From a virus, in IMG/VR virus record IMGVR_UViG_3300021197_001905, positions 1 through 39,272 of that record: 39,272 nt of DNA. The stretch is one strand, 5' to 3'. How positions within the stretch are numbered: the stretch's first letter is position 1; the number at the start of each line of letters is the position of its first letter. Positions 3,925-39,272 of the stretch are shown here, one piece after another. The notes under the pieces were generated by a model that searched no databases, had not been told where the DNA came from, and saw nothing but the letters and a program-made list of their open reading frames with translations. A program made the translations under genes and the position numbers.

Positions 3925-4303
3925 GTCTTAGTTCCTCCGTAAGGTTTATAGACTCGCCGTTTATATGCGACCTTATCGGACATATCAACCCCATAATTTC
4001 GTCCCAGTTATAGGGCGCTTCGACAAACAGGTCTGGCGGGCAGTCGGTGCCTTCCATCCTAACGTCGATAGCCTTAGACGCGTGATAAACTCGAACGATA
4101 TCGGTCTGCTTCGCTTTCGACTGTCGCACCAGTATCCACGCGCTACCGTTCTTGTGCAGGTCCAGCCACGTAACTTGATGCGGCGATAGCTCCACGGCCC
4201 TACCGCCCGTGTGTTTTAGCTCAACAAAATGAAAGAGGCCTAGCTCGTCTTGGATTACGATATCAGGAACCCCGGGCGTCGCCCACGTCTCCAGCCTCGT
4301 CAT
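3914..4303 (-). CDS. PD-(D/E)XK / VRR-NUC-like nuclease (129 aa)
   Basis: A small nuclease-like protein. WATPGVPD (residues 7-14) followed by VELK (27-30) provides the D14 ... E28-x-K30 active-site pattern of the restriction-endonuclease fold, as in VRR-NUC and small Holliday-junction-resolvase-like phage proteins. Residues 39-45 (LSPHQVT) and ILVR match the usual downstream helix and strand. The start chosen is the ATG at 4303; upstream in-frame codons lie inside the terS gene. It overlaps terS by 41 nt. Being next to TerS suggests a role in resolving replication branches before packaging or in recombination. Family assignment is from motif reading; substrate is inferred. Confidence 0.72.
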   Translation of the reverse strand: MTRLETWATPGVPDIVIQDELGLFHFVELKHTGGRAVELSPHQVTWLDLHKNGSAWILVRQSKAKQTDIVRVYHASKAIDVRMEGTDCPPDLFVEAPYNWDEIMGLICPIRSHINGESINLTEELRHGV

Positions 4304-4925
4304 CGTCAGTTTCCGGCTGCTCTTCGATATCCCCTCCTTCATCGTCTTCCACAAGCCGCTCTCGCGCTTTGCTGCGGTTTGCGGAATTGTCCGGCTCTTC
4401 GGGAGTGATGTCGATTGTGATCGGGGCATAGCTTTGTTTTATATCCTCTAAAGCTTTCAGTACTTCGTCCTTCGACATGGAGTCGATTGACCCATGACGA
4501 ATCTCGCTTTTGCTGACGTAGATGTCGCCCTGCGCCTGACCGCGTCGGTACTCGGCTTGGACCGCCGCGCTATAAGCGCCGTTCTGCAACGCCATATCGC
4601 GGATCGTTTGCAGGTCACGCAGGTGCCGTTGATAGGTGACGCCGAATTTAACGTCCAGTTCGTCCCTGTAAGCTCGAATAGCGGCTACAACGTGCGGAGA
4701 GCGGTCAGGGTTGGTAAGTTCGTACGCCCGGCTATGGGCACTGCTGGCAGGGTAGCCCGCGTTTATGGCGGCCTCCCGGAGCGTTATCTGCCCATCCTTA
4801 CTGACCAGTTCTTTGACAAACAGTTCCTGCTTGCGGGTCAGGGTGGTCTTGGTGCTGACCTTTTTCCGGCCCCTCGTTTCAACCCAATCCGGGTCGTCAG
4901 ATTTGCGGACAGTCTTGCGCGGCAT
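4263..4925 (-). CDS. terS: Terminase small subunit
   Basis: The protein resembles small terminase subunits that recognise phage DNA and recruit the packaging motor. Residues 28-60 (LTRKQELFVKELV ... ITLREAAINAGYPASSAHSRA) form a helix-turn-helix-like DNA-binding region typical of the family. A helical oligomerisation region follows (ELDVKFGVTYQRHLRDLQTI ... AVQAEYRRGQAQG), and the C-terminal 60 residues are highly acidic (DDEGGDIEE ... DDDEAGD), as in many TerS proteins. Length (220 aa) is normal. The large subunit is not adjacent and not in the window, which is unusual for terS position. The gene faces away from a repeat-rich non-coding region that could hold its recognition site. Confidence 0.75.
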   Translation of the reverse strand: MPRKTVRKSDDPDWVETRGRKKVSTKTTLTRKQELFVKELVSKDGQITLREAAINAGYPASSAHSRAYELTNPDRSPHVVAAIRAYRDELDVKFGVTYQRHLRDLQTIRDMALQNGAYSAAVQAEYRRGQAQGDIYVSKSEIRHGSIDSMSKDEVLKALEDIKQSYAPITIDITPEEPDNSANRSKARERLVEDDEGGDIEEQPETDDDEAGDVGDARGS

Positions 4926-5247
4926 GGCGGGTATCTTTCAATAGTTAATCCGCACTAGTCTTGCCACAAAACCGCTTATATATATAGGGCCAAAATCAGG
5001 TTTTTTTCGAAAACAAACTGCTCGCGCGGGTCACGTGGAATATTCAATGGAACCCATGGAACCTTTTTGGCTCTCCATGGAACCTCTTTTATCTTTGGTT
5101 CTCAGTGAGTTACGCGAAAAGGTTCCACGGTTCCACGGGTTCCACGCTAAAAATTTTTTTTTCAGAAAAAAATAATTTCAGCCCTATATATATAGGGAGA
5201 ACTAGAACTGATCTCTGAGAAGAACCGTGGGCCGTGATTGGTGGTCT
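4926..5247. other. Repeat-rich non-coding region beside terS: candidate ori, pac site or promoter region
   Basis: This 322-bp stretch has no credible gene. It contains three ATGGAACC copies (5047-5054, 5056-5063, 5077-5084) and, after a 36-bp gap, three copies of the inverse GGTTCCAC (5121-5128, 5129-5136, 5138-5145), so the array as a whole is an inverted structure. A/T-rich tracts follow (5148-5177). A perfect 16-bp palindrome CCCTATATATATAGGG occupies 5182-5197, and a related TATATATATAGGG lies at the left end near 4977-4989. Iterons beside AT-rich DNA are typical of replication origins; the terS neighbour also allows a packaging site. It must also carry the promoter for the terS group. 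Confidence 0.6.
5225..5245. repeat. 21-bp direct repeat, copy 1 (copy 2 at 5539-5559)
   Basis: CCGTGGGCCGTGATTGGTGGT here and CCGTGGGCCGTGATTAGTGGT at 5539-5559 differ at one base. Each copy lies 3-8 nt beyond the stop codon of a leftward gene (73 aa and 133 aa). The repeat may mark a duplicated 3-prime end or a transcript-processing site. Confidence 0.6.
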
Positions 5248-5469
5248 TTATCCCCTAGTGAGAGAAGATATTTCCGTTAGGTAGTTGTGTAGGTATTCCC
5301 CCAAATGCTCGGTTACCTCGGTGTCGTCCAGACCGAAATAAGGCATCTCGTCGTACTCGGCGCTAAACGTCCATGTTTTAGGGCCCGTTTCCTCAAGTTC
5401 ACAAACTTTATGTCGTTTGCCGTTCTTTATTTTAATTAGTTCGTATCTTTCGAGTTCGTATTTTTCCAT
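5248..5469 (-). CDS. Hypothetical acidic protein (73 aa)
   Basis: Unrecognised small protein starting MEKYELERYELIKIKNGKRH, then VCELEETGPKTWTFSAEY and an acidic helical end (YLHNYLTEISSL). The ATG at 5469 has AAGGAG at ideal distance; a longer in-frame reading to 5511 lacks a site. It is preceded by a 96-bp spacer that includes one copy of a 21-bp repeat, and its stop is followed by the other copy. It lies at the end of a transcription unit before the 322-bp non-coding region. No function assigned. Confidence 0.65.
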   Translation of the reverse strand: MEKYELERYELIKIKNGKRHKVCELEETGPKTWTFSAEYDEMPYFGLDDTEVTEHLGEYLHNYLTEISSLTRG

Positions 5470-5565
5470 TGGTTTTCTCCTTATGAAAAGCCCACGTCTC
5501 ATCTCAGGCATCGTTTTAACTCCAACCTGTTAAGAGGCCCGTGGGCCGTGATTAGTGGTTACTGA

Positions 5566-5967: not shown

Positions 5968-6099
5968 TGAGTTACTCCATGGTTAATGGTCCACGGGCCA
6001 CTCAACAGGTCGGTGTCGTATTTACAATGAGAAAGAGCCGGGCGCTTTTGTGCCTCTTTATTATGTATTATAATAAAGCATCTTATCCCATATGTACAT

Positions 6100-6114
6100 G
6101 CGACATAGTGTCGC
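6100..6114. promoter_or_regulatory. Palindrome GCGACATAGTGTCGC, operator-like
   Basis: GCGACA and TGTCGC form perfect 6-bp arms around TAG in the leader of the 133-aa gene. Its reverse complement (GCGACACTATGTCGC) resembles the minus-strand form of the TCGC motifs (GCGACATTATGCGAG at 2213-2227), so the same regulator might bind. An A/T-rich block with TATAAT on the minus strand lies just downstream near 6067-6075. Confidence 0.4.
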
Positions 6115-6134
6115 ACCCTAAGTCGCTGATTTCA

Positions 6135-6278
6135 TTACGTTTTATCTGATCTTAGGTGCCTAAGATAATCATACATTTTTTTCGAGAGTCCGCACTTTTC
6201 GCAAGTCGGAAATTTTTTGCCGTACCGGTCGGACACTTCCCGTCCCGTGAAACCGCAGGTCGTCTCTTCTGTTTTCAT
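6135..6278 (-). CDS. Small zinc-finger-like protein (47 aa)
   Basis: Begins MKTEETTCGFTGREVSDRYG and continues KKFPTCEKCGLSKKMYDYLR, ending HLRSDKT. The CEKC pair with an upstream Cys could form part of a small metal-binding site. The ATG at 6278 lies 4 nt after the stop of the upstream 42-aa gene, consistent with translational coupling, although the ribosome site (GAAAGA) is weak. It is the last gene of the leftward group that begins with the zinc-ribbon and oxygenase genes. Function unknown. Confidence 0.5.
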   Translation of the reverse strand: MKTEETTCGFTGREVSDRYGKKFPTCEKCGLSKKMYDYLRHLRSDKT

Positions 6279-6282
6279 AAGT

Positions 6283-6411
6283 CTATCTTTCTTTTCGAGG
6301 GAATAATGCCTGCCACCACATGGCGGGAGGGAACATGTAAAACACGCGCCAAATTTCGTCCCAAGTGTGGAACTGAGAACGCCGCCGTCGGCTTATAAGC
6401 CCGTTACTCAT
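6283..6411 (-). CDS. Small aromatic-rich protein (42 aa)
   Basis: Begins MSNGLISRRRRSQFHTWDEI and continues WRVFYMFPPAMWWQALFPRK. It has an Arg-rich N-terminus followed by a Trp/Phe/Pro-rich hydrophobic segment, which would suit a membrane-surface association. Its ATG overlaps the stop of the 179-aa oxygenase gene by 8 nt (ATGAGTAA), and the next gene starts 4 nt after its stop, so the three genes look translationally linked. No family recognised. A gene here is supported by the overlaps and absence of any better reading. Confidence 0.5.
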   Translation of the reverse strand: MSNGLISRRRRSQFHTWDEIWRVFYMFPPAMWWQALFPRKER

Positions 6412-6943
6412 TTTTCGGTTTCCATTTGTTAGGGTTGACGTTCATCGTCCAGTTGAAAGCTAGGGTCATGCGTTCGTCGGGAGCCGCGGGCACCGAATGC
6501 CGCAGCGAGGACGGTAAGGTGAGGACGTGGCCTCTGAGATTGTTAAAAAGAACGTCGCCCGCGCTTATCTGACTGGGGCCAAAATATATTACCGTGGCGT
6601 AATCCGTCCCTTCGGCAACGTGTGCGTGTTCGGTGACGCTTTCCCCCGGCTTCAAAAGGTTGCCCCAAGCGTCGAGGATGTTGATGCCGGTAAAATTAGG
6701 GTCGTTAAATATATTCGACGACAGAAGTTGCTCCCCGAACATTCCGACATATTCGTGGAAAACCGGATCGTTGTTAAAGTGCCTGAAGTCGGTCATCTGG
6801 CCCTTTACGTTTGTGGCGTAATCCATCGGTCCGACGCCCTCGCGGATAGCTCTTTCAAAATGTTGAAGATGGGGCTCTGATGGAACGTAAGCTCGAACTA
6901 CCTCGGTAGGCGCGTTGATCCAGTGCTTTTCAATAACTTCCAT
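6404..6943 (-). CDS. 2-oxoglutarate/Fe(II)-dependent oxygenase-like protein A (179 aa)
   Basis: A double-stranded beta-helix oxygenase by motif reading. EHAHVAEG (residues 105-112) supplies the proximal iron-ligand region (His106/His108 and an acidic residue), GDVLFNN follows, and LRHSV with His149 plus Arg158 (DERMTLAFNW) give the distal His and the Arg that binds 2-oxoglutarate. The architecture resembles the 2OG-FeII_Oxy_5 type. The ATG at 6943 is chosen because AGGAGGT lies 4 nt upstream; an in-frame extension to 7135 would add 64 residues of unrelated character. One of four oxygenase-like genes within 5.2 kb. The proximal motif is HxH/E, not classic HxD, so catalysis is not assured. Confidence 0.72.
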   Translation of the reverse strand: MEVIEKHWINAPTEVVRAYVPSEPHLQHFERAIREGVGPMDYATNVKGQMTDFRHFNNDPVFHEYVGMFGEQLLSSNIFNDPNFTGINILDAWGNLLKPGESVTEHAHVAEGTDYATVIYFGPSQISAGDVLFNNLRGHVLTLPSSLRHSVPAAPDERMTLAFNWTMNVNPNKWKPKNE

Positions 6944-6963
6944 TTTACCTCCTGTAGAGTTGA

Positions 6964-6991
6964 GGGGAGGGCCAGTAAGTAAACCCTCCCC
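6964..6991 (-). promoter_or_regulatory. Hairpin in the leader of oxygenase A
   Basis: GGGGAGGG (6964-6971) pairs perfectly with CCCTCCCC (6984-6991) around a 12-nt loop, 21 nt before the oxygenase start codon. There is no T-run after it on the minus strand, so it is more likely an RNA structure affecting translation or stability than a terminator. Confidence 0.4.
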
Positions 6992-7011
6992 CCGATAGTG
7001 CGGTTGCAGCC

Positions 7012-7089
7012 TTAACCTCCAAATGCGCCAACGACACGGCGGGAACCCGGGGCTTTGACGGAGACGTTTAATCCGCAGGACTGCTTCAT
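7012..7089 (-). CDS. Possible micro-gene (25 aa)
   Basis: A short reading frame, MKQSCGLNVSVKAPGSRRVV followed by GAFGG, in the 202-bp gap between the 62-aa gene and oxygenase A. It is Gly, Val and Arg rich with one Cys. There is no clear ribosome binding site, so support rests on occupying otherwise empty space in a compact genome and on protein-like composition. It may instead be leader RNA for oxygenase A. Report as tentative. Confidence 0.3.
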   Translation of the reverse strand: MKQSCGLNVSVKAPGSRRVVGAFGG

Positions 7090-7145
7090 CGCTTTCGCAC
7101 CGCTCGGCGAAAGCTGAGTATGTGGGCTCCTCCAATTCTCCTTAT

Positions 7146-7334: not shown

Positions 7335-7602
7335 ATTCCACCAGCCAATCGTTTTTATCGTTTGTTGCATCGCAGGCCTGACACTTCAACCGTGACCAAG
7401 CAAAGTGATATACCTCGGTCCACGTGCCGCAGTCCGGGCAGTATATTTTTTTGGGCTTCTTACCGGCTCGGGTGTACCTGTTTACGTTCGTAAATTTCTT
7501 CGGCTCTTTTTCCAGAAACTCGGAAAGCGCCGCGCCGCGCTTATCGTCGTCAAACGATAAAACGCGGTTTAGCATCTTCCGCCAAAAACGAAGCGGGTCC
7601 AT
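7324..7602 (-). CDS. Zinc-ribbon protein (92 aa)
   Basis: The C-terminal half carries CPDCGTWTEVYHFAW followed by CQAC, two CxxC knuckles about 18 residues apart, which is the layout of a zinc ribbon. The N-terminal half is a basic helix (MDPLRFWRKMLNRVLSF) and a Lys-rich linker (RAGKKPKKIY), fitting nucleic-acid binding. Its ATG shares a base with the TAA stop of the upstream ribbon-helix-helix gene (TAATG). The pairing of a ribbon-helix-helix protein with a zinc ribbon at the head of an oxygenase-containing operon suggests regulatory roles, which is inference. Confidence 0.68.
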   Translation of the reverse strand: MDPLRFWRKMLNRVLSFDDDKRGAALSEFLEKEPKKFTNVNRYTRAGKKPKKIYCPDCGTWTEVYHFAWSRLKCQACDATNDKNDWLVEYVE

Positions 7603-7889
7603 TACACGCGCCCTCTTGCCCGGTCAATCATCTCGCTCGTTACTTCAAGGGCCTCCCTCGAAAAGTCGGCAACGCGAGTTTCTTGCGTTGGTGGGAGACT
7701 TTCTGCCGGTGCAATTTCGGCGACGTGGTAGAGCGTTTCCATCTTCTGGGATATGAGCGACTCAATTACCTGCCGACGACTAAGTTTGACGATCCCGGTT
7801 TTAACCTCAAGGTTGGTGCGGATTTCGTCTAGCATTTCTACTGTCGCCGTGGGCAGAACAATCGTTGTTCCCGCATATTTCTTGTCCAT
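7602..7889 (-). CDS. Ribbon-helix-helix-like DNA-binding protein (95 aa)
   Basis: Residues 7-48 match the CopG/Arc pattern: a short beta strand (GTTIVLPTATVEML), helix A (LDEIRTNLEVKTG), a turn, and helix B (LSRRQVIESLISQKM). Such proteins bind operators as dimers. The C-terminal half is polar and Glu rich. It is the first gene after a good promoter-like sequence (7920-7948), whose downstream edge carries a GTATGGG half-site that also occurs in two other leaders, so autoregulation is plausible. The fold call rests on pattern and not on alignment. Confidence 0.6.
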   Translation of the reverse strand: MDKKYAGTTIVLPTATVEMLDEIRTNLEVKTGIVKLSRRQVIESLISQKMETLYHVAEIAPAESLPPTQETRVADFSREALEVTSEMIDRARGRV

Positions 7890-7958: not shown

Positions 7959-8525
7959 CTAAAACGGAATCCAATTAAAATTTATGACTCGCCGGTACGG
8001 CACGTCGGTCGCGGTCCAAGATCCGTGGCGCACGAAGGCGGGGAAGGTAACCAGTCGGTTAGCTACGGCGTCTACTTTTTTTCCGCCTTCAAACTCGGTA
8101 GGACCGTCGCACGTGTCTAGGTACAGAATACCGGTCACGCATATATCTTCCCGATGAGTGTCTGTGTGAAACCCGCCGAAAAAAGAAGTTTCCCCGGAGT
8201 ACGTCAACAAATTTACTTTAGCGCGAACTAAAATAAAGGGGTCAATTTTTTGTAAAACCGGCGCAATAATTTTTGCAGGCTGCGGACAGTCTTCCCGCGC
8301 CCGGTCTCCTAGCTGACCCATAACATCAAACGGTATTTCTAGCGGCTCATGTTGGTATAAAACGTGAGAAAACTGGTTGTTTCGTAAGTGAGTCTCAGGG
8401 CCAAGTTCCGCGACGTTTGAAAGGTGAAAACGCCACGGAAATCCACCACCCGGATGAAGGGCGCTTTTTAAATCAAAGAAAACCTCGTCATTCAAAAAGT
8501 TTTCAAAGATTTTAATCTCCGTCAT
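7959..8525 (-). CDS. 2-oxoglutarate/Fe(II)-dependent oxygenase B, prolyl-4-hydroxylase-like (188 aa)
   Basis: Clear P4H-type oxygenase motifs: GGFHTDTH places His120-x-Asp122, ILYLDTCDGPTEFEGG is the usual central strand, VTFPAFVRHGSW supplies distal His167, and YRRVINFNW supplies Arg179 for 2-oxoglutarate. Length is normal for a single-domain phage enzyme. The ATG at 8525 overlaps the stop of oxygenase C by 14 nt. It is the last gene of a run HD protein - oxygenase C - oxygenase B. Such enzymes hydroxylate protein side chains, nucleobases or small molecules; this sequence alone does not tell which. Confidence 0.82.
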   Translation of the reverse strand: MTEIKIFENFLNDEVFFDLKSALHPGGGFPWRFHLSNVAELGPETHLRNNQFSHVLYQHEPLEIPFDVMGQLGDRAREDCPQPAKIIAPVLQKIDPFILVRAKVNLLTYSGETSFFGGFHTDTHREDICVTGILYLDTCDGPTEFEGGKKVDAVANRLVTFPAFVRHGSWTATDVPYRRVINFNWIPF

Positions 8526-10494: not shown

Positions 10495-11628
10495 CTATTT
10501 AAATGCGGGCCCGGTCACCCACCCCACAAGTGAGTGTCTGGTGCCCTTAGTTACGGGGGTTACTTCGTGCAGCGAATAGCTTGGAAAGAACGTGATAGCG
10601 CCTTGGTCGCGCTCTATCCGCTGAGGGTTAGGACTATCGTGTATAAGCAAGTCGCCCCCTTCGTAGCTTTGCGACGGGGATAATTGAACGCTAAAACTTA
10701 ACTTTCGATGCTCCAGAGTTCTAGGGTCAGAACTGGACCCGTCTACGTGTTTTCCGTAAAACCCGCCATCGCCACAATAGGTGGTGAATTGAAGAGATTG
10801 AATATTACAAAGGTCGAAACAAAAAAAACTTTCGTTAGTTTCAACGACTTCCCCGCACAACAACTCAAACAACCAATGGTTTTTTTCGTTGCTTGAATAG
10901 AGAAACTGTGTCGTTGAGGTTCGAACATTGTGGTTGACGCTTCCGTTTCCGTTTCCCACGGCGGCGTCTTGGGGCAGAGAAGCGCGGTCCTCTTGAAGAC
11001 AAGAAGAGATGATTTCCTCGCATTGAGTAGCGCTTAAAACCCCTCTTTTTTGACTGATAAAAGCAGTTGAGGTAGAGGATAAAGCCCAGCTAAAAGCATG
11101 GTTCTCAGCCCTTTGTTTGGGGCCCTCTTCTTCTAAAGCCTCTTCTTCTTTAAACGCAATTACGCACTCAAAATGCCAGCCTTGCGATACAGGACTCCTT
11201 TTATACGTAAACTCGTCGTTAAAAAAAATTGCGGTTCCGGGCCGCATAGCTATTTGTCCGCCGTGTTCGGTTTCTATTATCCAGTCCGTCCAGACGCCAG
11301 CGCAGTAGCTGGCAAGACAGACTTTAAGCCAGTACAATTTTTCCCCCTTCGGGGATCGCGGCCTCTTATCAGCGGGGTTTTTAGAATCGTACAGAAAACA
11401 TTCAGTCGAGACGACCGAAAGAGCCTTCTGCCTCTCAGGAAAAAGCGTTTTTCCCAACTTTTCCGCTGCCTGCTCAGCGTACGGCAAAACTTCAGGAGCG
11501 TTCAATATTTGAGGAGAGCGCATTTCAGCGTTACCACCCCCAGACACAGACAAAAGCTGTCGAACAAGATTTCCGCGCTCATCACTTTTGATGAGTTCCT
11601 GCATTTCAACTATAAGAGTCTCGGTCAT
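10495..11628 (-). CDS. Two-domain 2-oxoglutarate/Fe(II) oxygenase D, PKHD/prolyl hydroxylase-like (377 aa)
   Basis: The C-terminal domain (about 190-377) is a P4H-type oxygenase of the PiuC/YbiX-like kind: YGKHVDG gives His294-x-Asp296, FSVQLSPSQSYEGGDLLIHD the central strands, ITFFPSYSLHEVTPV distal His354, and TRHSLVGWVTGP Arg364. The N-terminal domain (about 70-160) looks like a second beta-helix barrel (EHGGQIAMRPGTAIFFNDEF) but I see no complete iron triad, so it may be a degenerate copy used for substrate binding. An Ala/Glu linker joins them. The ATG at 11628 overlaps the preceding gene stop as ATGA. The largest of the four oxygenases here. Confidence 0.8.
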   Translation of the reverse strand: MTETLIVEMQELIKSDERGNLVRQLLSVSGGGNAEMRSPQILNAPEVLPYAEQAAEKLGKTLFPERQKALSVVSTECFLYDSKNPADKRPRSPKGEKLYWLKVCLASYCAGVWTDWIIETEHGGQIAMRPGTAIFFNDEFTYKRSPVSQGWHFECVIAFKEEEALEEEGPKQRAENHAFSWALSSTSTAFISQKRGVLSATQCEEIISSCLQEDRASLPQDAAVGNGNGSVNHNVRTSTTQFLYSSNEKNHWLFELLCGEVVETNESFFCFDLCNIQSLQFTTYCGDGGFYGKHVDGSSSDPRTLEHRKLSFSVQLSPSQSYEGGDLLIHDSPNPQRIERDQGAITFFPSYSLHEVTPVTKGTRHSLVGWVTGPAFK

Positions 11629-12729: not shown

Positions 12730-12863
12730 TACCGCCCCTGTCCGCGATACTTTTTAAAGTTCCGCTTCTTGTGCTTGTTCTTGGGCCGCGAAAAATGGCT
12801 AGAGCCTATGGCCGTCCGTTTCTTAATCGGCTTATCGCGAAAATCGGCTGCGACCTTAGCCAT
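12729..12863 (-). CDS. Small, very basic protein (44 aa)
   Basis: Begins MAKVAADFRDKPIKKRTAIG and continues SSHFSRPKNKHKKRNFKKYR, ending GQGR. More than a third of residues are Lys or Arg, so RNA or DNA binding is likely. The ATG at 12863 overlaps the upstream stop by 8 nt and its TAA joins the hydrolase ATG as TAATG. No family recognised. Confidence 0.62.
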   Translation of the reverse strand: MAKVAADFRDKPIKKRTAIGSSHFSRPKNKHKKRNFKKYRGQGR

Positions 12864-13035
12864 CCAATATCACCTGCGAGGCTTCCATCGGGTAGCTTTT
12901 CCGAAAGGCTTCGGATTCGGCAATGTGTATCTGAAGCTGACCGCTGATACTGCGGCCCTCCTTCTGGGATCGCTGCTTTACATCTTGATAAGTTTGGATC
13001 GGCACAAGAATGCTTTTCCACTTAGTCGTGTCCAT
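12856..13035 (-). CDS. Ribbon-helix-helix-like regulator (59 aa)
   Basis: The start MDTTKWKSILVPIQTYQDVK followed by RSQKEGRSISGQLQIHIAES has the strand-helix-turn-helix pattern of a ribbon-helix-helix DNA-binding protein: strand KSILVPI, helix TYQDVKQRSQKEG, turn RSIS, helix GQLQIHIAE. A GGAG site lies at normal distance before the ATG at 13035. It heads a leftward operon with the basic protein, the SleB hydrolase and a zinc ribbon, directly after the terminator of the replication operon, so it may control lysis gene timing (inference). Confidence 0.6.
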   Translation of the reverse strand: MDTTKWKSILVPIQTYQDVKQRSQKEGRSISGQLQIHIAESEAFRKSYPMEASQVILDG

Positions 13036-13091
13036 AACTGATCTCCTTTAAACTATACGGGAACATATAAGAGTTACTGCGGCTATGCAAC

Positions 13092-13127
13092 AAAAAACCC
13101 CGCCGGAGAGGTCAATAACCGGCGGGG
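13092..13127 (-). terminator. Strong Rho-independent terminator after the polymerase gene
   Basis: CCCCGCCGG (13098-13106) pairs perfectly with CCGGCGGGG (13119-13127) around a 12-nt loop, with six Ts following on the minus strand. It lies 33 nt after the DNA polymerase stop. Confidence 0.93.
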
Positions 13128-13159
13128 TAAGTTTAGGGAGGTCACAAGCGGAGAAGGGA

Positions 13160-15052
13160 TCACTCCGCTTCGCCCCAGCTAGCGCCAATCTCAATGTCGC
13201 ATCGACTGGGGACGTCCAAGTCTATCGCATTTGTCATTATGCTTGCAATAGACCGAGCCTCTTCCTTTCCGGTAACAGAAACCGCTAGCTCATCGTGAAT
13301 CTGGATAAGCGGGATCTTTCCGGTCCGGTACACGTCCACCATGGCCTGCTTCGTCATGTCCGCCGCGGACGCCTGAATAAGCCTGTTAAGCGCCTTATAG
13401 GTATAGGCCCGCTTCAGCCGAGTGGTTTGACCGTACTGGCGCACCGCCTCGTGGTATGGCAGTGCCTTGTTCATCTCAAACGAGTCGGGCTCCCACAGGT
13501 CAAAGCGACACTTACGACCCTTTAAGGAGCGGATAGCCCCGAAACTACCTTTGTCGTTAAGGCGATCTGTCACGCCGCGCATCAACATTTTCACAAAGGG
13601 GACGCGTTGGTGATATTGGTTTATAAGCTCCTTCGCCTCTTCTAGAGGGATATCTAACTGGTCTGCCATCTTCTTGGCACCCATGCCGTACATCATTCCG
13701 AGATTGATCGTTTTCGCCTGCTTACGACTGATCTGAGCCATGTCGGCGACCATAGTGTGAAAGTCCATTGTCGGGTCGTTGCGATAGCCGTCCACGAACT
13801 CTTCGACGCCGCGCAGGGGAAGACTGCGGCTTTTACCAAACACCGAGGCATAGTGGACCAAGATTCGTGGTTCCTGTTGCGAGAAATCAATGGAGGCCCA
13901 CTCTTCGCCCTCTTCCGGTAAAAACAGGCTACGGATCATCGGCCCTAGTTCAGGGTCTCGCGCCGGGATTTGCTGAAGGTTTGGATTATTCATCGATATG
14001 CGACCCGAGACCGTGCCTCCGTCGTCGGACCGAATCTGGTTTATGTGACCGTGGATACGACCGTCGTCTCCGACGTGCTTCATAATGCTGCTGATAAACG
14101 TACCCTGAATCTTGTTCAAGGCCCGTGCATCGACAACCATCTTAGCCAGAGGGTGTTCGTGTGCGGTTAAAAACGCTTTCGTAAAGCTGGGAGCGCCGGT
14201 CGCCGTCCTTGGATACGACACTGAAAGTTTATCAAAGGCGTCCGCCAGACTTTTGGCTGCCCAAATTTCAACATGATTTCCAACCAGTTTTTTAATTTCA
14301 CTGACGACGTTCTTTTCCCGACGGATCAGGGCGTCTCTCGTTTTTGCCGCGGCATCCAGATCAACCCGCACTCCTCGCGAGGTCATATCTACTAGGCAAG
14401 GGAGAAGCGCTAGTTCCAAATCAACAATTTCTTGAAGCCCCTCCTGCCCTACCTTTACCTTGAAAAAGTTCCAGAGTTCCAAGGTCAATTCAGCGTCCGT
14501 CTGGGCATAGGGCCCGACGTGCATGGCGGGGAGCTTCCACATCTCGGCCTTCGGGTCTAGCCCAAACTCTCTCGCCGCAGCGATAAGGTCTTTCTCAGAC
14601 TTAACCTTATCCAGATAGTCATAGGCGACAGAGTTAAGTGAGAACGAACGACGGTTCTCGTCAAGCAGGCTAGCGACCACCATCGTATCGATGATGCGAC
14701 CGTTGACCTCAATACCGTGCGCCCGGAGCCAGCCCACGTCGTATTGGGCGTTATGAAAAACTTTGTCCGCATCGGTGGCGCAGACTTTCTTCATCCAGTT
14801 CTCAACCAGCCGACGGTCTAGATTACCTCCTCCGGTGTGGCCTATAGGGTAGTAAGCGCACCAACCGTCTACCGCGACCGCGTATCCGACGACCTCGCCG
14901 TTGTTAACGGGCCAGCCGGGGCCACGTTTCATAAGGTCCGGGTCGCGTGTTTCAAGATCGATTGCGATCTGCTTAGCGCCCGACAAGTCCGGAAACTCGG
15001 ACGGGGGAACCCACTCGCTATCCGGCGCAAACATAGCCATCTGTAAACTCAT
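13160..15052 (-). CDS. polA: DNA polymerase, family A, with proofreading exonuclease
   Basis: Replicative polymerase. The N-terminal 3-5 exonuclease has IAIDLETRD (Asp32, Glu34), FHNAQYDVGWL and YAQTDAELT. The polymerase domain has motif A WASIDFSQQEPRI, motif B RKQAKTINLGMMYGMG and motif C IQIHDELAV (His586-Asp587-Glu588). There is no 5-3 exonuclease, as usual in phage enzymes; 630 residues is slightly short. In motif B the residue equivalent to E. coli Phe762 is Leu (about residue 451), a known viral variant linked to slower, more accurate synthesis. GGAGAG precedes the ATG at 15052, which overlaps the upstream stop as ATGA. It is the last gene of the leftward replication operon. Confidence 0.96.
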   Translation of the reverse strand: MSLQMAMFAPDSEWVPPSEFPDLSGAKQIAIDLETRDPDLMKRGPGWPVNNGEVVGYAVAVDGWCAYYPIGHTGGGNLDRRLVENWMKKVCATDADKVFHNAQYDVGWLRAHGIEVNGRIIDTMVVASLLDENRRSFSLNSVAYDYLDKVKSEKDLIAAAREFGLDPKAEMWKLPAMHVGPYAQTDAELTLELWNFFKVKVGQEGLQEIVDLELALLPCLVDMTSRGVRVDLDAAAKTRDALIRREKNVVSEIKKLVGNHVEIWAAKSLADAFDKLSVSYPRTATGAPSFTKAFLTAHEHPLAKMVVDARALNKIQGTFISSIMKHVGDDGRIHGHINQIRSDDGGTVSGRISMNNPNLQQIPARDPELGPMIRSLFLPEEGEEWASIDFSQQEPRILVHYASVFGKSRSLPLRGVEEFVDGYRNDPTMDFHTMVADMAQISRKQAKTINLGMMYGMGAKKMADQLDIPLEEAKELINQYHQRVPFVKMLMRGVTDRLNDKGSFGAIRSLKGRKCRFDLWEPDSFEMNKALPYHEAVRQYGQTTRLKRAYTYKALNRLIQASAADMTKQAMVDVYRTGKIPLIQIHDELAVSVTGKEEARSIASIMTNAIDLDVPSRCDIEIGASWGEAE

Positions 15053-15282
15053 TTTTCTCTCCGGGGGCGACGCTGTACCCTTTTTCGTTGAACGCGAACT
15101 TTCGGCTTTACAGTCTCGTCTCGGGGTATTCGTCTACGGACGGCTTTCAAAAGATCTTCGGCTATAATCACCGCAGTGCTTGTTGAAATAGGCACCAAGA
15201 AATCGATACCCTTGTTTTTATCAATCACCCGAAACTGAATGGGCTCTTCGGGACTCGTGTCGTAAGGAATTATTAATGTCAA
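15049..15282 (-). CDS. Hypothetical protein with basic tail (77 aa)
   Basis: Begins MTLIIPYDTSPEEPIQFRVI and continues with a beta-rich then helical middle (IDFLVPISTSTAVIIAEDLL). The last 25 residues are almost all Lys, Arg and Pro, suggesting DNA or RNA contact. The start is a TTG at 15282 overlapping the helicase stop (TTGA), with GGAGG 10 nt upstream; the downstream end overlaps the polymerase ATG. Its position between helicase and polymerase suggests a replication accessory factor. No family recognised. Confidence 0.65.
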   Translation of the reverse strand: MTLIIPYDTSPEEPIQFRVIDKNKGIDFLVPISTSTAVIIAEDLLKAVRRRIPRDETVKPKVRVQRKRVQRRPRREK

Positions 15283-16838
15283 AACGAGTAGGCCTCCTTT
15301 GATGATTCCGGCGCAACCAGAAAGAGGTTTTCCTTCGTACGGGTGACCCCAACGTAAAAAGTCCGATGCAGGTCGTTACTGCCCGCCACGTCCCTTGCTG
15401 CCTCACGAAGAGCGGCATAGCTACAGTCCGTGTACAAGACCACGTTTCGGGCCTCCCCGCCCTTAGCTCCGTGGATTGTTGAAACGGTAATCCGAGGTTT
15501 TTGCGACAACTCTTCTCCTCGCCGCTCAGCCGCTTGAAGGTAAACAAGCTGGTTCTCTGGCGCTTTTGTCAGGACCGCGGGCCACGGTTCGTCTTTCGAA
15601 ACCATAAGCCCCTGTGCCTCGACCAGTTCATTATAGTCGATTTCGTCGTCGTCTTCGACATTAGGTAGTGTTTTAAAGCCCCTCCGAACCCCGTGGCCGA
15701 CGTCAAGGAATGAGTACATCTTTCGCGCCTCCGAACCCGCCACCCGTTCTCCTTGCTGTAATGTTTTCCAACAAAGAACCGCATCAATCAGCTTCTGGCT
15801 AAACCGCGTCTTGCCGTTCTTAGTGTCAAACAGGTAGCCGGAAGACCGAAGCAAATTAATTGCGGACTCCAGCATGTAATTGCACTGGCCGAGAACGAGC
15901 CAGTCACCATCAGCCATGTCAGTCAGTATCGACTCGATACCGTTAATGTACTGCACGGAGCCTTCAATGCCCTGCGGCTGGTATACCTTGGGGAGCCGCC
16001 CTTCTACCCGCGAAACGACATTCTCGGCAAGGGCGTGGACCTTTCGCGGAATCCGCCAGCTTGTCGCCAAAACCTCGGACGCCCCTTCAAGCCCTAAGAA
16101 CTGCTCAACATCAGCCCCGGCCCATCGGAATATGGCCTGATCGTCATCCCCCGCCACAATTACGCGGTTAGCGGTTTTCTCGGCGATCTTATTGACGACG
16201 TGCCACTGAATTTTGGATAAATCCTGCGCCTCGTCAACGAAGACTGTATCAAAGGTCGGGCAGGTACTGTCCGCCAGTTCAAGAAACAGCAGGAGCATAT
16301 CCGTAAAATCAAACCGGCGTTCTCCAGACTTGTAGTCCTCGTAAGCTCGGCTGAGGTAATCGACCAGCGGCCAAGGTTGGTTATTGGTAATCCCCCACTC
16401 CTCGTACGCCTGTCGCAATGGGATCTCTTTGACCTTCGCCATATTTATCAGGCCTATGACCGTTTCCTTGTTCGGCAGCGCAAGGCCAAAGTTTTCGGCG
16501 TCGGGGTTAGTCGAAGTTGCTTCGAACTCAAACCCCGTAAGGGCGGTCATGTCCCGCCAGTTTTCTTTATCCATCAACTGATCTTTTTTGATCCCGCTGT
16601 ACATAAAGCAAAAACTGTGAAGCGTCCGAAAATAAGGCAGGTCGTCGGGGCCCATGTTGAGCCGCTCTAGCGCCCTGTCGCGAGCCTCGTAGGCCGCCTT
16701 CTTGGTAAACCCAAAATAGCCGATGCGTCCGGGGGCTACGCCGCTATCAATAAGGTCGGCAACCATGTTTATCAAATGAGTGGTCTTGCCCGTGCCGGGA
16801 GGCCCGAACACGCGTAAAAATTTAGAATGGGATGTCAT
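15279..16838 (-). CDS. Superfamily 1 DNA helicase, UvrD/Rep-like
   Basis: ATP-dependent DNA helicase. Walker A GPPGTGKT (residues 12-19), motif Ia-like GYFGFTKKAA, motif II VFVDEAQDLS, motif III AGDDDQAIFRWAGA, motif IV-like SWRIP, motif V TVSTIHGAKGGEARNV and motif VI YVGVTRTKENL are all present in order. At 519 residues it is shorter than bacterial UvrD (about 700), lacking the large 1B/2B insertions, as in small phage versions. The ATG at 16838 has GGAGAG just upstream and overlaps the primase gene by 17 nt. It probably unwinds DNA for the polymerase encoded two genes downstream. Confidence 0.93.
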   Translation of the reverse strand: MTSHSKFLRVFGPPGTGKTTHLINMVADLIDSGVAPGRIGYFGFTKKAAYEARDRALERLNMGPDDLPYFRTLHSFCFMYSGIKKDQLMDKENWRDMTALTGFEFEATSTNPDAENFGLALPNKETVIGLINMAKVKEIPLRQAYEEWGITNNQPWPLVDYLSRAYEDYKSGERRFDFTDMLLLFLELADSTCPTFDTVFVDEAQDLSKIQWHVVNKIAEKTANRVIVAGDDDQAIFRWAGADVEQFLGLEGASEVLATSWRIPRKVHALAENVVSRVEGRLPKVYQPQGIEGSVQYINGIESILTDMADGDWLVLGQCNYMLESAINLLRSSGYLFDTKNGKTRFSQKLIDAVLCWKTLQQGERVAGSEARKMYSFLDVGHGVRRGFKTLPNVEDDDEIDYNELVEAQGLMVSKDEPWPAVLTKAPENQLVYLQAAERRGEELSQKPRITVSTIHGAKGGEARNVVLYTDCSYAALREAARDVAGSNDLHRTFYVGVTRTKENLFLVAPESSKEAYSF

Positions 16839-18354
16839 CCATCTCTCCAGTGGCAACGGGGGATGCGACCGCGGCGGGTTGAACCGAGAACGCAGGGATT
16901 TTGTAGACGTTTACCGACTCTCCGCTAATCTTTAACTTAGACGCCTCTCCGCCAATTTCGCGGAGCCTTTGAGCCAACTTGTGGCGCTTATACTCAAAAA
17001 ACTTATTTCGTTGCAAAAAACTTTCGAGATCGCGAAGCCGAAGATAGGTAACCGAACTGGTTTCATCGGTCCACGGCTTGCCGAGATGTATCTCGTCCCG
17101 AGACTGTGCCGTCTGATGGTTGATGCAGAAATCGCGGAGATATTCGTAAAAGATACCCCGGGTCGATTCCTCCTCGGCTACCGGAATAACCGCGGCGCTG
17201 TTGTCGCGAAGCTCTCCCAACAGGGCCGCGATCCGCGATTCCCACGTGTTCTTCGTGGACGACGGCGGCAGAAAGTTTATCTGCTCCATGCAAGCCTTCT
17301 GAAAGGCGGGCTGCGACAGAAGGCCGTCGCTATCCAGTTCGATGGGCACCCCGTTCACGTCCAGAAACCAGACCGGGGGCTGGCTATCGTACTTACGCAA
17401 GTTTGCCATCGCTGCCGACGCCGCGCCGCCGACGCCGAACTTCCGGGTCAGACACGTGGGCCGGTCGCAGTACGAGTTTATCGGCGCGTCATTGCACTTG
17501 TATGCGTAGTCTTTCTTTTTCAACTGATTGACGACTATGCCAATTTCCGTCAACCCAAGCGGCGGGTTCAGATAAGCCATGTTCCACTGCATCAACTCCG
17601 TCTCCCAGCTATCAGGGTACGCTTTCTGCAAGTAGACCCCAATGTTAAACAGGCCGTTGTTTCGTCCCCCCTCAGAGATTTTCTGGGGTAGGAGGGTCTG
17701 TAGGCACGGCGGGCCGTCCACCAAAAAGTCTTTCTTCTCGGTCACCGAAATCGCGGTAACCTGCTCCGGGGTCTGGCCGCGCTCTTCGCAAAGAGCAAGA
17801 AACTCCTCCAACGTCGCGGCGCTTCCATCAACATTAAAAGCGTGGCGTAGGCTATCTTCGTGCCCGAAATACGGCAGGTTAATTGCTGAACCTACGTCGC
17901 CGCGCTCTACGTTGATAACCTCCTGCTTTGGGAATATCTCCGCATCGCCCCACCCCATCGCCGCTGCGATTTTCCGCAACGCTTCTCTCATCTTGGATGC
18001 GGGCATCCACTCTTTACAAAAAAGATAGCAGTGCGCTCCGCCGCTTTTTGAGCGGTCCACGATTAGCGGCAGCTTCTTCTCTTCGAAAAAATCAATCAGC
18101 TTTTTGTGGTCGAGGGGGTACTTGTCGATGTCAATGCACCCAAACCGCACGTTCGATTCCGCGTTCAGCAGAAAGACCCCGATACTTGTTTCCCCATCCA
18201 GATGACCGCGGTATTGCTCCTCGGTCAGCGGCTCTCTTTTCGTTTGATATGACGCTTCGTTCTTTCCCGAACCATTGACGGCTTTGGGCACCATTTCCAA
18301 ATATACGGAATCGAGGCCTGAAAAGAACGACGCAAATTTCTTTACGTGTTCCAT
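16822..18354 (-). CDS. Archaeo-eukaryotic-type primase, TOTE-like (510 aa)
   Basis: Primase or primase-polymerase. The AEP core has FGCIDIDKYP (Asp75-x-Asp77, metal binding) and RSKSGGAHCYLF (Ser104-Gly-Gly-Ala-His108), plus EIFPKQ further on; this layout matches the TOTE conflict-system AEP domain. A middle helical region and a Cys cluster (YKCND, then YCDRPTCLTRKFG) suggest a PriCT-like or zinc-binding segment. The C-terminus ends MDDIPF, the same tail as bacterial SSB. The ATG at 18354 has AGGA upstream. Encoded immediately before the SF1 helicase and after a terminator, it likely primes phage DNA synthesis and replaces the DnaG/helicase protein of T7-like phages. Confidence 0.85.
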   Translation of the reverse strand: MEHVKKFASFFSGLDSVYLEMVPKAVNGSGKNEASYQTKREPLTEEQYRGHLDGETSIGVFLLNAESNVRFGCIDIDKYPLDHKKLIDFFEEKKLPLIVDRSKSGGAHCYLFCKEWMPASKMREALRKIAAAMGWGDAEIFPKQEVINVERGDVGSAINLPYFGHEDSLRHAFNVDGSAATLEEFLALCEERGQTPEQVTAISVTEKKDFLVDGPPCLQTLLPQKISEGGRNNGLFNIGVYLQKAYPDSWETELMQWNMAYLNPPLGLTEIGIVVNQLKKKDYAYKCNDAPINSYCDRPTCLTRKFGVGGAASAAMANLRKYDSQPPVWFLDVNGVPIELDSDGLLSQPAFQKACMEQINFLPPSSTKNTWESRIAALLGELRDNSAAVIPVAEEESTRGIFYEYLRDFCINHQTAQSRDEIHLGKPWTDETSSVTYLRLRDLESFLQRNKFFEYKRHKLAQRLREIGGEASKLKISGESVNVYKIPAFSVQPAAVASPVATGEMDDIPF

Positions 18355-38398: not shown

Positions 38399-39272
38399 TT
38401 ACGCGGCTAATTCTTCCCACGTAGCTGTCTGGTCCGGTGTTATAGCGCTATACGAACTCGTCTGATCCGGCGTTATGGCGCTATACGAACCTGTCTGATC
38501 CGGTGTTATAGCGCTATAAGAAGCCGTCTGGTCCGGTGTTATAGCGCTATAAGAAGCCGTCTGGTCCGGGGATATTATACCCCAAACAGTTACATTTCCA
38601 ATAGAACTTATTGCTTCCGCGCCTGCCGGAGAAATTACCGCCCTACCGGTTGCAACCACCGTGCCGACGCCGCCGGTTGCAGATAGGCCGGTAGTGGGGA
38701 CTTCAGCGTTACCGGTAGCGGTAGCGGTTCCAAGCGCAGTGGTTCCGGCAACTCCTGTGGCGCTAACCGTCGTGCCCAAAATTATAACGGGGCTGCCCAC
38801 CGCAGTGGTTCCGGCAACTCCTGTAGCGCTAACCGTCGTGCCCAAAATTATAACGGGGCTGCCCACCGCAGTGGTTCCGGCAACTCCTGTAGCCGCTACA
38901 ACAAAATCAGTTACGACTGTCTCATTGCCCACCGCGGTCGTTCCGGCAACGCCAGAAACAGACACAACAAAATCAGTTACGACTGTCTCGTTGCCCACCG
39001 CAGTGGTTGCAGACAAGCCTGTCTCGGGAACTTCGGCCCCGCCGGTTGCAACGGCGGTTCCAACGGCGGTCGTTCCGGCAGAACCAGTGACCGCTACGAC
39101 AAAATCAGTTGTGACTGTCTCATTGCCTACCGCAGTGGTTCCGGCAGAACCAGTGACCGCTACGACAAAATCAGTTGTGACTGTCTCATTGCCCACCGCA
39201 GTGGTTCCGGCAGAACCAGTGACCGCTACGACAAAATCAGTTATGACTGTCTCATTGCCCACCGCAGTGGTT
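38399..39272 (-). CDS. Repetitive fibre-like protein, 5-prime end missing (at least 291 aa)
   Basis: The reading frame stays open to the right edge, so the true start lies outside; a GTG at 39262 is not accepted as the start because the repeats continue upstream. The visible part is made of 22-residue repeats of the type AGTTAVGNETVVTDFVVAVT, ten or more copies, Ala/Thr/Val/Gly rich and free of Cys, then a different short repeat (ITPDQTASYSA, 11 residues, four to five copies) at the C-terminal end. Such arrays form elongated beta fibres or adhesins. It would be a large, probably variable virion-surface protein. Confidence 0.75.
   Translation of the reverse strand, partial: TTAVGNETVITDFVVAVTGSAGTTAVGNETVTTDFVVAVTGSAGTTAVGNETVTTDFVVAVTGSAGTTAVGTAVATGGAEVPETGLSATTAVGNETVVTDFVVSVSGVAGTTAVGNETVVTDFVVAATGVAGTTAVGSPVIILGTTVSATGVAGTTAVGSPVIILGTTVSATGVAGTTALGTATATGNAEVPTTGLSATGGVGTVVATGRAVISPAGAEAISSIGNVTVWGIISPDQTASYSAITPDQTASYSAITPDQTGSYSAITPDQTSSYSAITPDQTATWEELAA
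38428..38569. repeat. 33-bp tandem repeats at the 3-prime end of the repetitive fibre gene
   Basis: Four complete 33-bp units (38428-38460, 38461-38493, 38494-38526, 38527-38559) and a partial fifth. Most units contain TATAGCGCTATA, a 12-bp palindrome. They encode ITPDQTASYSA-type units. Confidence 0.9.
38737..39272. repeat. 66-bp tandem repeats in the repetitive fibre gene
   Basis: Phrases such as CAGTGGTTCCGGCA recur every 66 bp (for example 38737, 38803, 38869). Units near 38737-38868 are almost identical to each other and those near 39070-39270 form another near-identical group. The array runs off the right edge. Confidence 0.88.

Follow-up and report, generated by a model that had tools for sequence, protein, structure and literature searches.

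In the 39,272-base IMG/VR fragment of a marine virus that we analysed (hereafter the window), the 322-bp gap that separates the terminase small subunit gene terS (4263-4925, minus strand) from a small ORF at 5248 holds a repeat array (4976-5197) that is very probably the iteron-type origin of replication of the phage, or an indispensable part of it, read by the phage's own AEP-type primase. The primase appears to recognise the start site itself, since the word that is repeated in the array changes in step with two residues of the DNA-binding domain of this protein. Sequence recognition by the primase is supported by this covariation, and the opening of the DNA, priming and origin firing are steps that we infer. 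The features on which this proposal is built are collected in Table 1.

Table 1. Features of the array and of the genes discussed in the text (window coordinates)
Feature	Position	Strand	Basis or remark
Terminase small subunit (TerS), array neighbour, not discriminating reader	4263..4925	-	phrog_51 7e-11; Terminase_2 7.6e-5, below Pfam cut-off
Outer flank element TATATATATAGGG, distal copy adjoining terS	4977..4989	.	TATATA(GGG) flank recurs in relatives
A/T-rich tract beside loose iteron cluster, candidate unwinding element	4991..5018	.	4976-5018 is 72% A/T
Iteron copy (T)GGAACC	5048..5054	+	sequence
Iteron copy (T)GGAACC	5057..5063	+	sequence
Iteron copy (T)GGAACC	5078..5084	+	sequence
36-bp centre	5085..5120	.	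varies between relatives
Tight iteron triple GGTTCCA (GTGGAACCCGTGGAACCGTGGAACC in terS orientation), spacing 8/9 bp, most conserved part	5121..5144	-	
A/T tract, candidate unwinding element	5146..5181	.	88% A/T over 5148-5181; recurs in relatives
Perfect palindrome CCCTATATATATAGGG, proximal flank element	5182..5197	.	
Family A DNA polymerase (PolA), replisome; putative partner	13160..15052	-	
UvrD-family SF1 helicase, overlaps primase gene; likely origin partner (putative)	15279..16856	-	
AEP-type primase, 510 aa, proposed initiator	16822..18354	-	Pfam AEP-TOTE 8.3e-19; phrog_21866 primase 5e-91; Foldseek CAPP Prim-Pol 1.5e-10
Codons of C-terminal winged helix (residues ~430-492), proposed origin-binding domain	16879..17067	-	AlphaFold2 models; TcpK match
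Codons of wing residues 473-475 (K-L-K), tracking word bases 2-3 and 5-6	16930..16938	-	

An opposed iteron array lies next to terS

An earlier sequence-only reading had described this gap as three TGGAACC and three inverted GGTTCCA units that symmetrically flank a 36-bp centre and are followed by A/T-rich DNA and a perfect 16-bp palindrome. Each of these parts was found at its claimed place: the three TGGAACC copies are on the plus strand, the inverted copies start at 5121, 5129 and 5138, the centre is exactly 36 bp long, the palindrome is perfect and the DNA that follows the repeats is 88% A/T (5148-5181), compared with 47% in the window. The claimed symmetry did not survive measurement, the copies being spaced by 9 and 21 bp on one side and by 8 and 9 bp on the other, and the gap is not the largest non-coding stretch of the window, as two other gaps (5968-6403 and 12730-13159) are longer. 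A triple of TGGAACC with gaps of at most 30 nt is found twice in the window, one for each orientation, but in none of 100 dinucleotide shuffles; TATATATAGGG, with at most one mismatch, occurs three times, always inside the array, when 0.14 occurrences are expected. Moreover, the two halves of the array form a 64-nt imperfect inverted repeat (4977-5040 and 5131-5194, 73%), so that an TATATAGGG element is found on both outer sides. The array is thus real and far beyond chance. As in known iteron origins, a short motif is directly repeated several times in non-coding DNA that adjoins an A/T-rich region, and A/T tracts recur in the relatives; the third hallmark of such origins, a cognate initiator that recognises the motif, is indicated by the covariation described below.

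Other features of the window were also recorded. The 21-nt element CCGTGGGCCGTGATTRGTGGT is present at 5225-5245 and 5539-5559, each time after a small gene, and recurs in intergenic gaps of relatives. For positions 6404-7135, Pfam returned a 2OG-Fe(II) oxygenase at 3.7e-4, a weak match that does not reach the cut-off; by eye, the ORFs at 7959-8525 and 10495-11628 look similar to this one. Positions 38419-39272 hold tandem 33-bp and 66-bp coding repeats in a gene that is cut by the contig end.

The architecture of the array is conserved while its word changes

Searching IMG/VR with terS returned more than 500 relatives, of which 80 were kept; searches with PolA were added, and both together gave 110 distinct upstream regions, each 300 nt or longer. 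The sequence-only reading had proposed that the same array be looked for in related genomes: a tight triple, defined as a G-initial hexamer at 8-9 bp spacing, was present upstream of terS in 101 of the 110 distinct marine phage sequences, when 0.1 are expected from shuffles. The frame that is kept consists, in order, of a TATATAG element, an A/T tract, the triple, a variable centre, opposed copies, T-rich DNA, a second TATATAG element and terS. The opposed cluster is not strictly inverted in every relative, and the tight triple is the constant part. Within this constant architecture, the word differs from phage to phage and agrees within each array, which amounts to concerted change; GGAACC, GGAACA, GTAACC, GTAACA, GTTACC, GTTACA, GGTACR, GTAAT, GGTAT and GTGTC were all seen. 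A blastn search of the array region against cultured phages gave no match. Cumulative GC skew, which had been suggested as a check, was monotonic around the array in long relatives and uninformative, marking no origin.

The cultured Pelagibacter phage HTVC023P (L086/L379, 11320-11865) has an array of its own upstream of terS, made of CTAGGAAA repeats with A/T tracts, and a differently built primase tail. Separately, the exact canonical bacterial parS 16-mer TGTTTCACGTGAAACA was found at 72 of 394 loci, some of which overlap. It usually lies 4.4-5.8 kb beyond terS, some tens of bases ahead of a conserved gene of ~486 aa (probably terL), and often has TGTTCCACGTGGAACA beside it. Examples on TerS-oriented contigs are G011 (44347), G021 (9683) and G025 (48492), and in L252, L255 and L256 the 16-mer is upstream of terS; the window stops short of such a position. 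The presence of these 16-mers suggests that host ParB may be used by such phages.

The word covaries with two residues of the primase

A swapped reader cassette was sought by gene-by-gene identity tables, in which no whole gene followed the word, and the signal was found at the level of residues. We searched seven conserved proteins (SNF2, p195, p259, primase, UvrD, PolA and TerS; 2,821 aa), among which residue 475 of the primase was the sole column that split base 6 of the word without overlap and residue 473 of the primase was the sole column that did so for base 3. The rule was drawn from 52 marine records whose array could be read, 51 of them with an aligned primase. In these records, K475 goes with C5 followed by a pyrimidine at base 6, R475 with C5 followed by A6, and A475 with T5 (GTAAT, L241); V473 goes with A3 (GTA), K473 with GGA, and L, Q or T at 473 with T3 (GTT), and a VTLK tail accompanies GTGTC (L211). 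The primase gene is located 12 kb from the array in the window, and 7-13 kb from it across the records, and neither PolA nor UvrD, which are encoded between the two, contains a column that tracks the word.

Using a primase tree that was built without the tail, independent pairs were counted on well-supported branches: residue 475 followed base 6 in four of four pairs and residue 473 followed base 3 in 4/4 pairs. With four pairs per position, a sign test cannot reach 0.05; the covariation draws its strength from the uniqueness of the columns, from the agreement of two positions and from the tests on unused data presented below. Switches can be seen between close relatives: the sister phages G010 (TVLK, GTAACC) and L219 (TTIR, GTTACA) have near-identical primase bodies and differ at both positions, and the window (SKLK, GGAACC) differs from G001 (SKLR, GGAACA) at a single one.

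The rule holds on data outside its derivation

Three contigs (L252, L255 and L256) had no array at terS, and a scan of these contigs located it ~5.6 kb upstream, in the same frame. In this clade, an LQIR tail is found with GGTACA or GGTACG, and the LQIS tail of a close relative with GGTAT or GGGAT. Judged by their words, these moved arrays fit Q473 with T3 and extend the rule, R475 then going with a purine and small residues (A, S) at 475 with T5.

The primase family also reaches cultured Acinetobacter, Klebsiella, Salmonella, Providencia and Pseudomonas phages, at 27-29% identity. An array was present in the gap directly upstream of the primase gene in 15 of the 15 cultured phages examined, many of which are close relatives and do not represent 15 separate events. 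Kokobel2 (TKLK) has GGAACC six times, four Klebsiella, Salmonella and Pseudomonas phages combine TKLR with GGAACG, Barton and JeffCo combine SVIR with GTAACA, and cultured phages with GALK, GAIK or GSIK tails have C at base 6. Across these six wing types, base 6 is always C where residue 475 is K and a purine where it is R, and the extended rule (for base 6, a pyrimidine with K475 and a purine with R475; GGA with K473 and GTA with V473) holds in the cultured set. The primases of HTVC027P, 023Pt_psg01 and Nanhaivirus, which have different tails, were left out of this test. Three of the cultured phages carry a second array with the same word near the genome end: SH-Ab 15497 (L398 43039-43138), where it is directly before terS, VLCpiS6a (L397 1670-1899) and Barton (L396 42651-42816).

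Both residues map to the wing of a predicted winged helix

Pfam matched the AEP domain to residues 34-184 in the N-terminal part of the primase, with a Foldseek alignment of about 220 columns, and found neither a PriCT-1 domain nor a helicase domain in the 510-aa protein, of which residues 284-399 were modelled mostly with low confidence. At the C-terminus, AlphaFold2 predicts a winged helix with a recognition helix at 457-466 and wing strands at 470-476 and 479-487, the confidence of this model being moderate (pLDDT ~70-85, pTM 0.54). Residues 473 and 475 are both on the first strand of the same predicted beta-wing and, being two apart, they should point the same way. Among solved folds, the best match for this domain was that of TcpK (VIA Z 8.0 over 90 residues, ~15% sequence identity), although a fold match at Z 8 can reflect a common arrangement. 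TcpK, from plasmid pCW3, recognises the 9-nt tandem boxes of a transfer origin mainly through its beta-wing, placed in the major groove, and not through its helix (PMC6137059). The array here has a spacing of 8-9 bp and residues 473 and 475 are carried by the predicted wing, but TcpK acts at a transfer origin and lacks a primase domain, whereas the phage protein is a primase.

Known initiators share parts of this design. The alpha protein of P4 is a primase with a C-terminal winged-helix origin-binding domain that binds origin repeats (PMC4234260). The phage protein likewise joins a primase to a C-terminal winged helix (here a predicted fold), but in P4 alpha the primase is of Toprim type and is fused to a helicase, whereas the primase here is of AEP type and an SF1 helicase is encoded by a separate neighbouring gene. 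The P4 alpha domain was not among the Foldseek and VIA matches listed, which is not evidence against the likeness. P4 replication needs two repeat sites, ori and crr, a layout that resembles the two arrays of SH-Ab 15497, VLCpiS6a and Barton. ColE2 Rep, RepE/RepS and PrimHYQ combine an AEP domain with a C-terminal HTH or winged helix, and the ColE2 and RepE/RepS initiators have an AEP domain without a fused helicase, as here (PMC5862659); initiators of the ColE2/RepE type also carry PriCT-1 before the HTH, a domain for which Pfam gave no hit in the phage primase. The pRN1 replication protein also has an AEP domain with a C-terminal HTH or winged helix, but its site is a stem-loop instead of iterons. 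For AEP plasmid initiators, we found in the papers searched no description of an opposed, multi-copy iteron array in which single residues switch the specificity. In the system of PLE satellites and the ICP1 Odn nuclease, the iterons of the origin vary together with the DNA-binding domain of the initiator RepA_N (PMC8263062). The exchange there involves entire RepA_N domains, whereas one or two wing residues change in the phage primase.

In the proposed mechanism, several primase molecules would dock on the repeats, each inserting the beta-wing of its C-terminal winged helix in the major groove; bases 5-6 would be selected by residue 475 and bases 2-3 by residue 473. The flanking A/T tracts would open with the help of the neighbouring UvrD-type helicase, the AEP domain would lay primers that the phage PolA would extend, and the opposed orientation of the repeat clusters would let primases load on both strands.

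Alternative explanations for the array

The sequence-only reading had proposed a replication origin or a packaging start, and these two halves fared differently: the origin half was strongly supported by the covariation of the word with the primase winged helix, while the half that relied on packaging read by TerS was not supported. It is very unlikely that TerS binds the array beside its gene to begin DNA packaging (a pac or cos site), even if the array is directly upstream of terS in most relatives and if the second, same-word array of cultured SH-Ab 15497 precedes terS. Two fragments without a primase gene, L005 and L007, encode TerS proteins that are 100% identical to that of the window and yet have GGAACA and GGAACC, respectively. 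Because identical TerS proteins are found beside different words, TerS was rejected as the discriminating reader, and the seven-protein column search found no TerS column that tracks the word, so that the sequences give no sign of the recognition by TerS that a pac or cos site implies. The array is, moreover, 5.6 kb from terS in one clade and adjoins the primase gene in the Acinetobacter, Klebsiella, Providencia, Salmonella and Pseudomonas phages. A ribbon-helix-helix-like ORF (7602-7889) was also considered as a reader and discarded, as it is missing from most relatives.

The primase, or a protein that shares its wing, might instead bind the array as an operator that regulates terS or other genes, and not replication. 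The location of the array in a promoter-sized gap before terS and a VRR nuclease gene, or before the primase gene itself in cultured phages, would be compatible with such a role, which we consider unlikely given that the reader carries a primase domain, that triple iterons, flanking A/T tracts and opposed clusters make up the anatomy of an origin, and that the form of the array was kept when it moved. Both features are also common to related phages, with four strongly supported independent pairs per position and no more, and the covariation could then have arisen by chance, through common ancestry or through the recombination of entire blocks of the genome. This explanation is largely refuted and hardly credible, considering the distance between gene and array, with PolA and UvrD in between that lack any such column, the switches between sister phages and the transfer of the rule to phages with 27-29% identical primases.

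Implications for origin specificity

An iteron origin with a primase as initiator is of a known kind; what is new is the reader that combines an AEP domain with a wing, the base-by-residue rule and the repeated switches of one or two residues. The papers searched on HTVC023P-type and CRP-901-type phages mention no iteron or replication origin, and no initiator of the group was met with in the papers searched. A bolder proposal, which we consider possible but somewhat short of probable, is that the primase wing is a near-digital reader, in which residue 475 picks bases 5-6 and residue 473 picks bases 2-3, and that origin types are mutually exclusive within a population. Such a reader would make origin specificity switchable by one or two mutations together with the concerted conversion of all iterons, and this switching is perhaps driven by satellites, rival phages or origin-targeting nucleases.

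For an abundant marine group related to HTVC023P-type pelagiphages, sequence alone thus allows us to propose an origin, its initiator and a rule by which residues predict bases, and the pairing of primase and array is directly testable in the cultured Acinetobacter and Klebsiella phages that share it. Origin specificity in these phages would be rewritable by single residues, which would provide a natural series of matched protein-site pairs for the study of how DNA recognition evolves.
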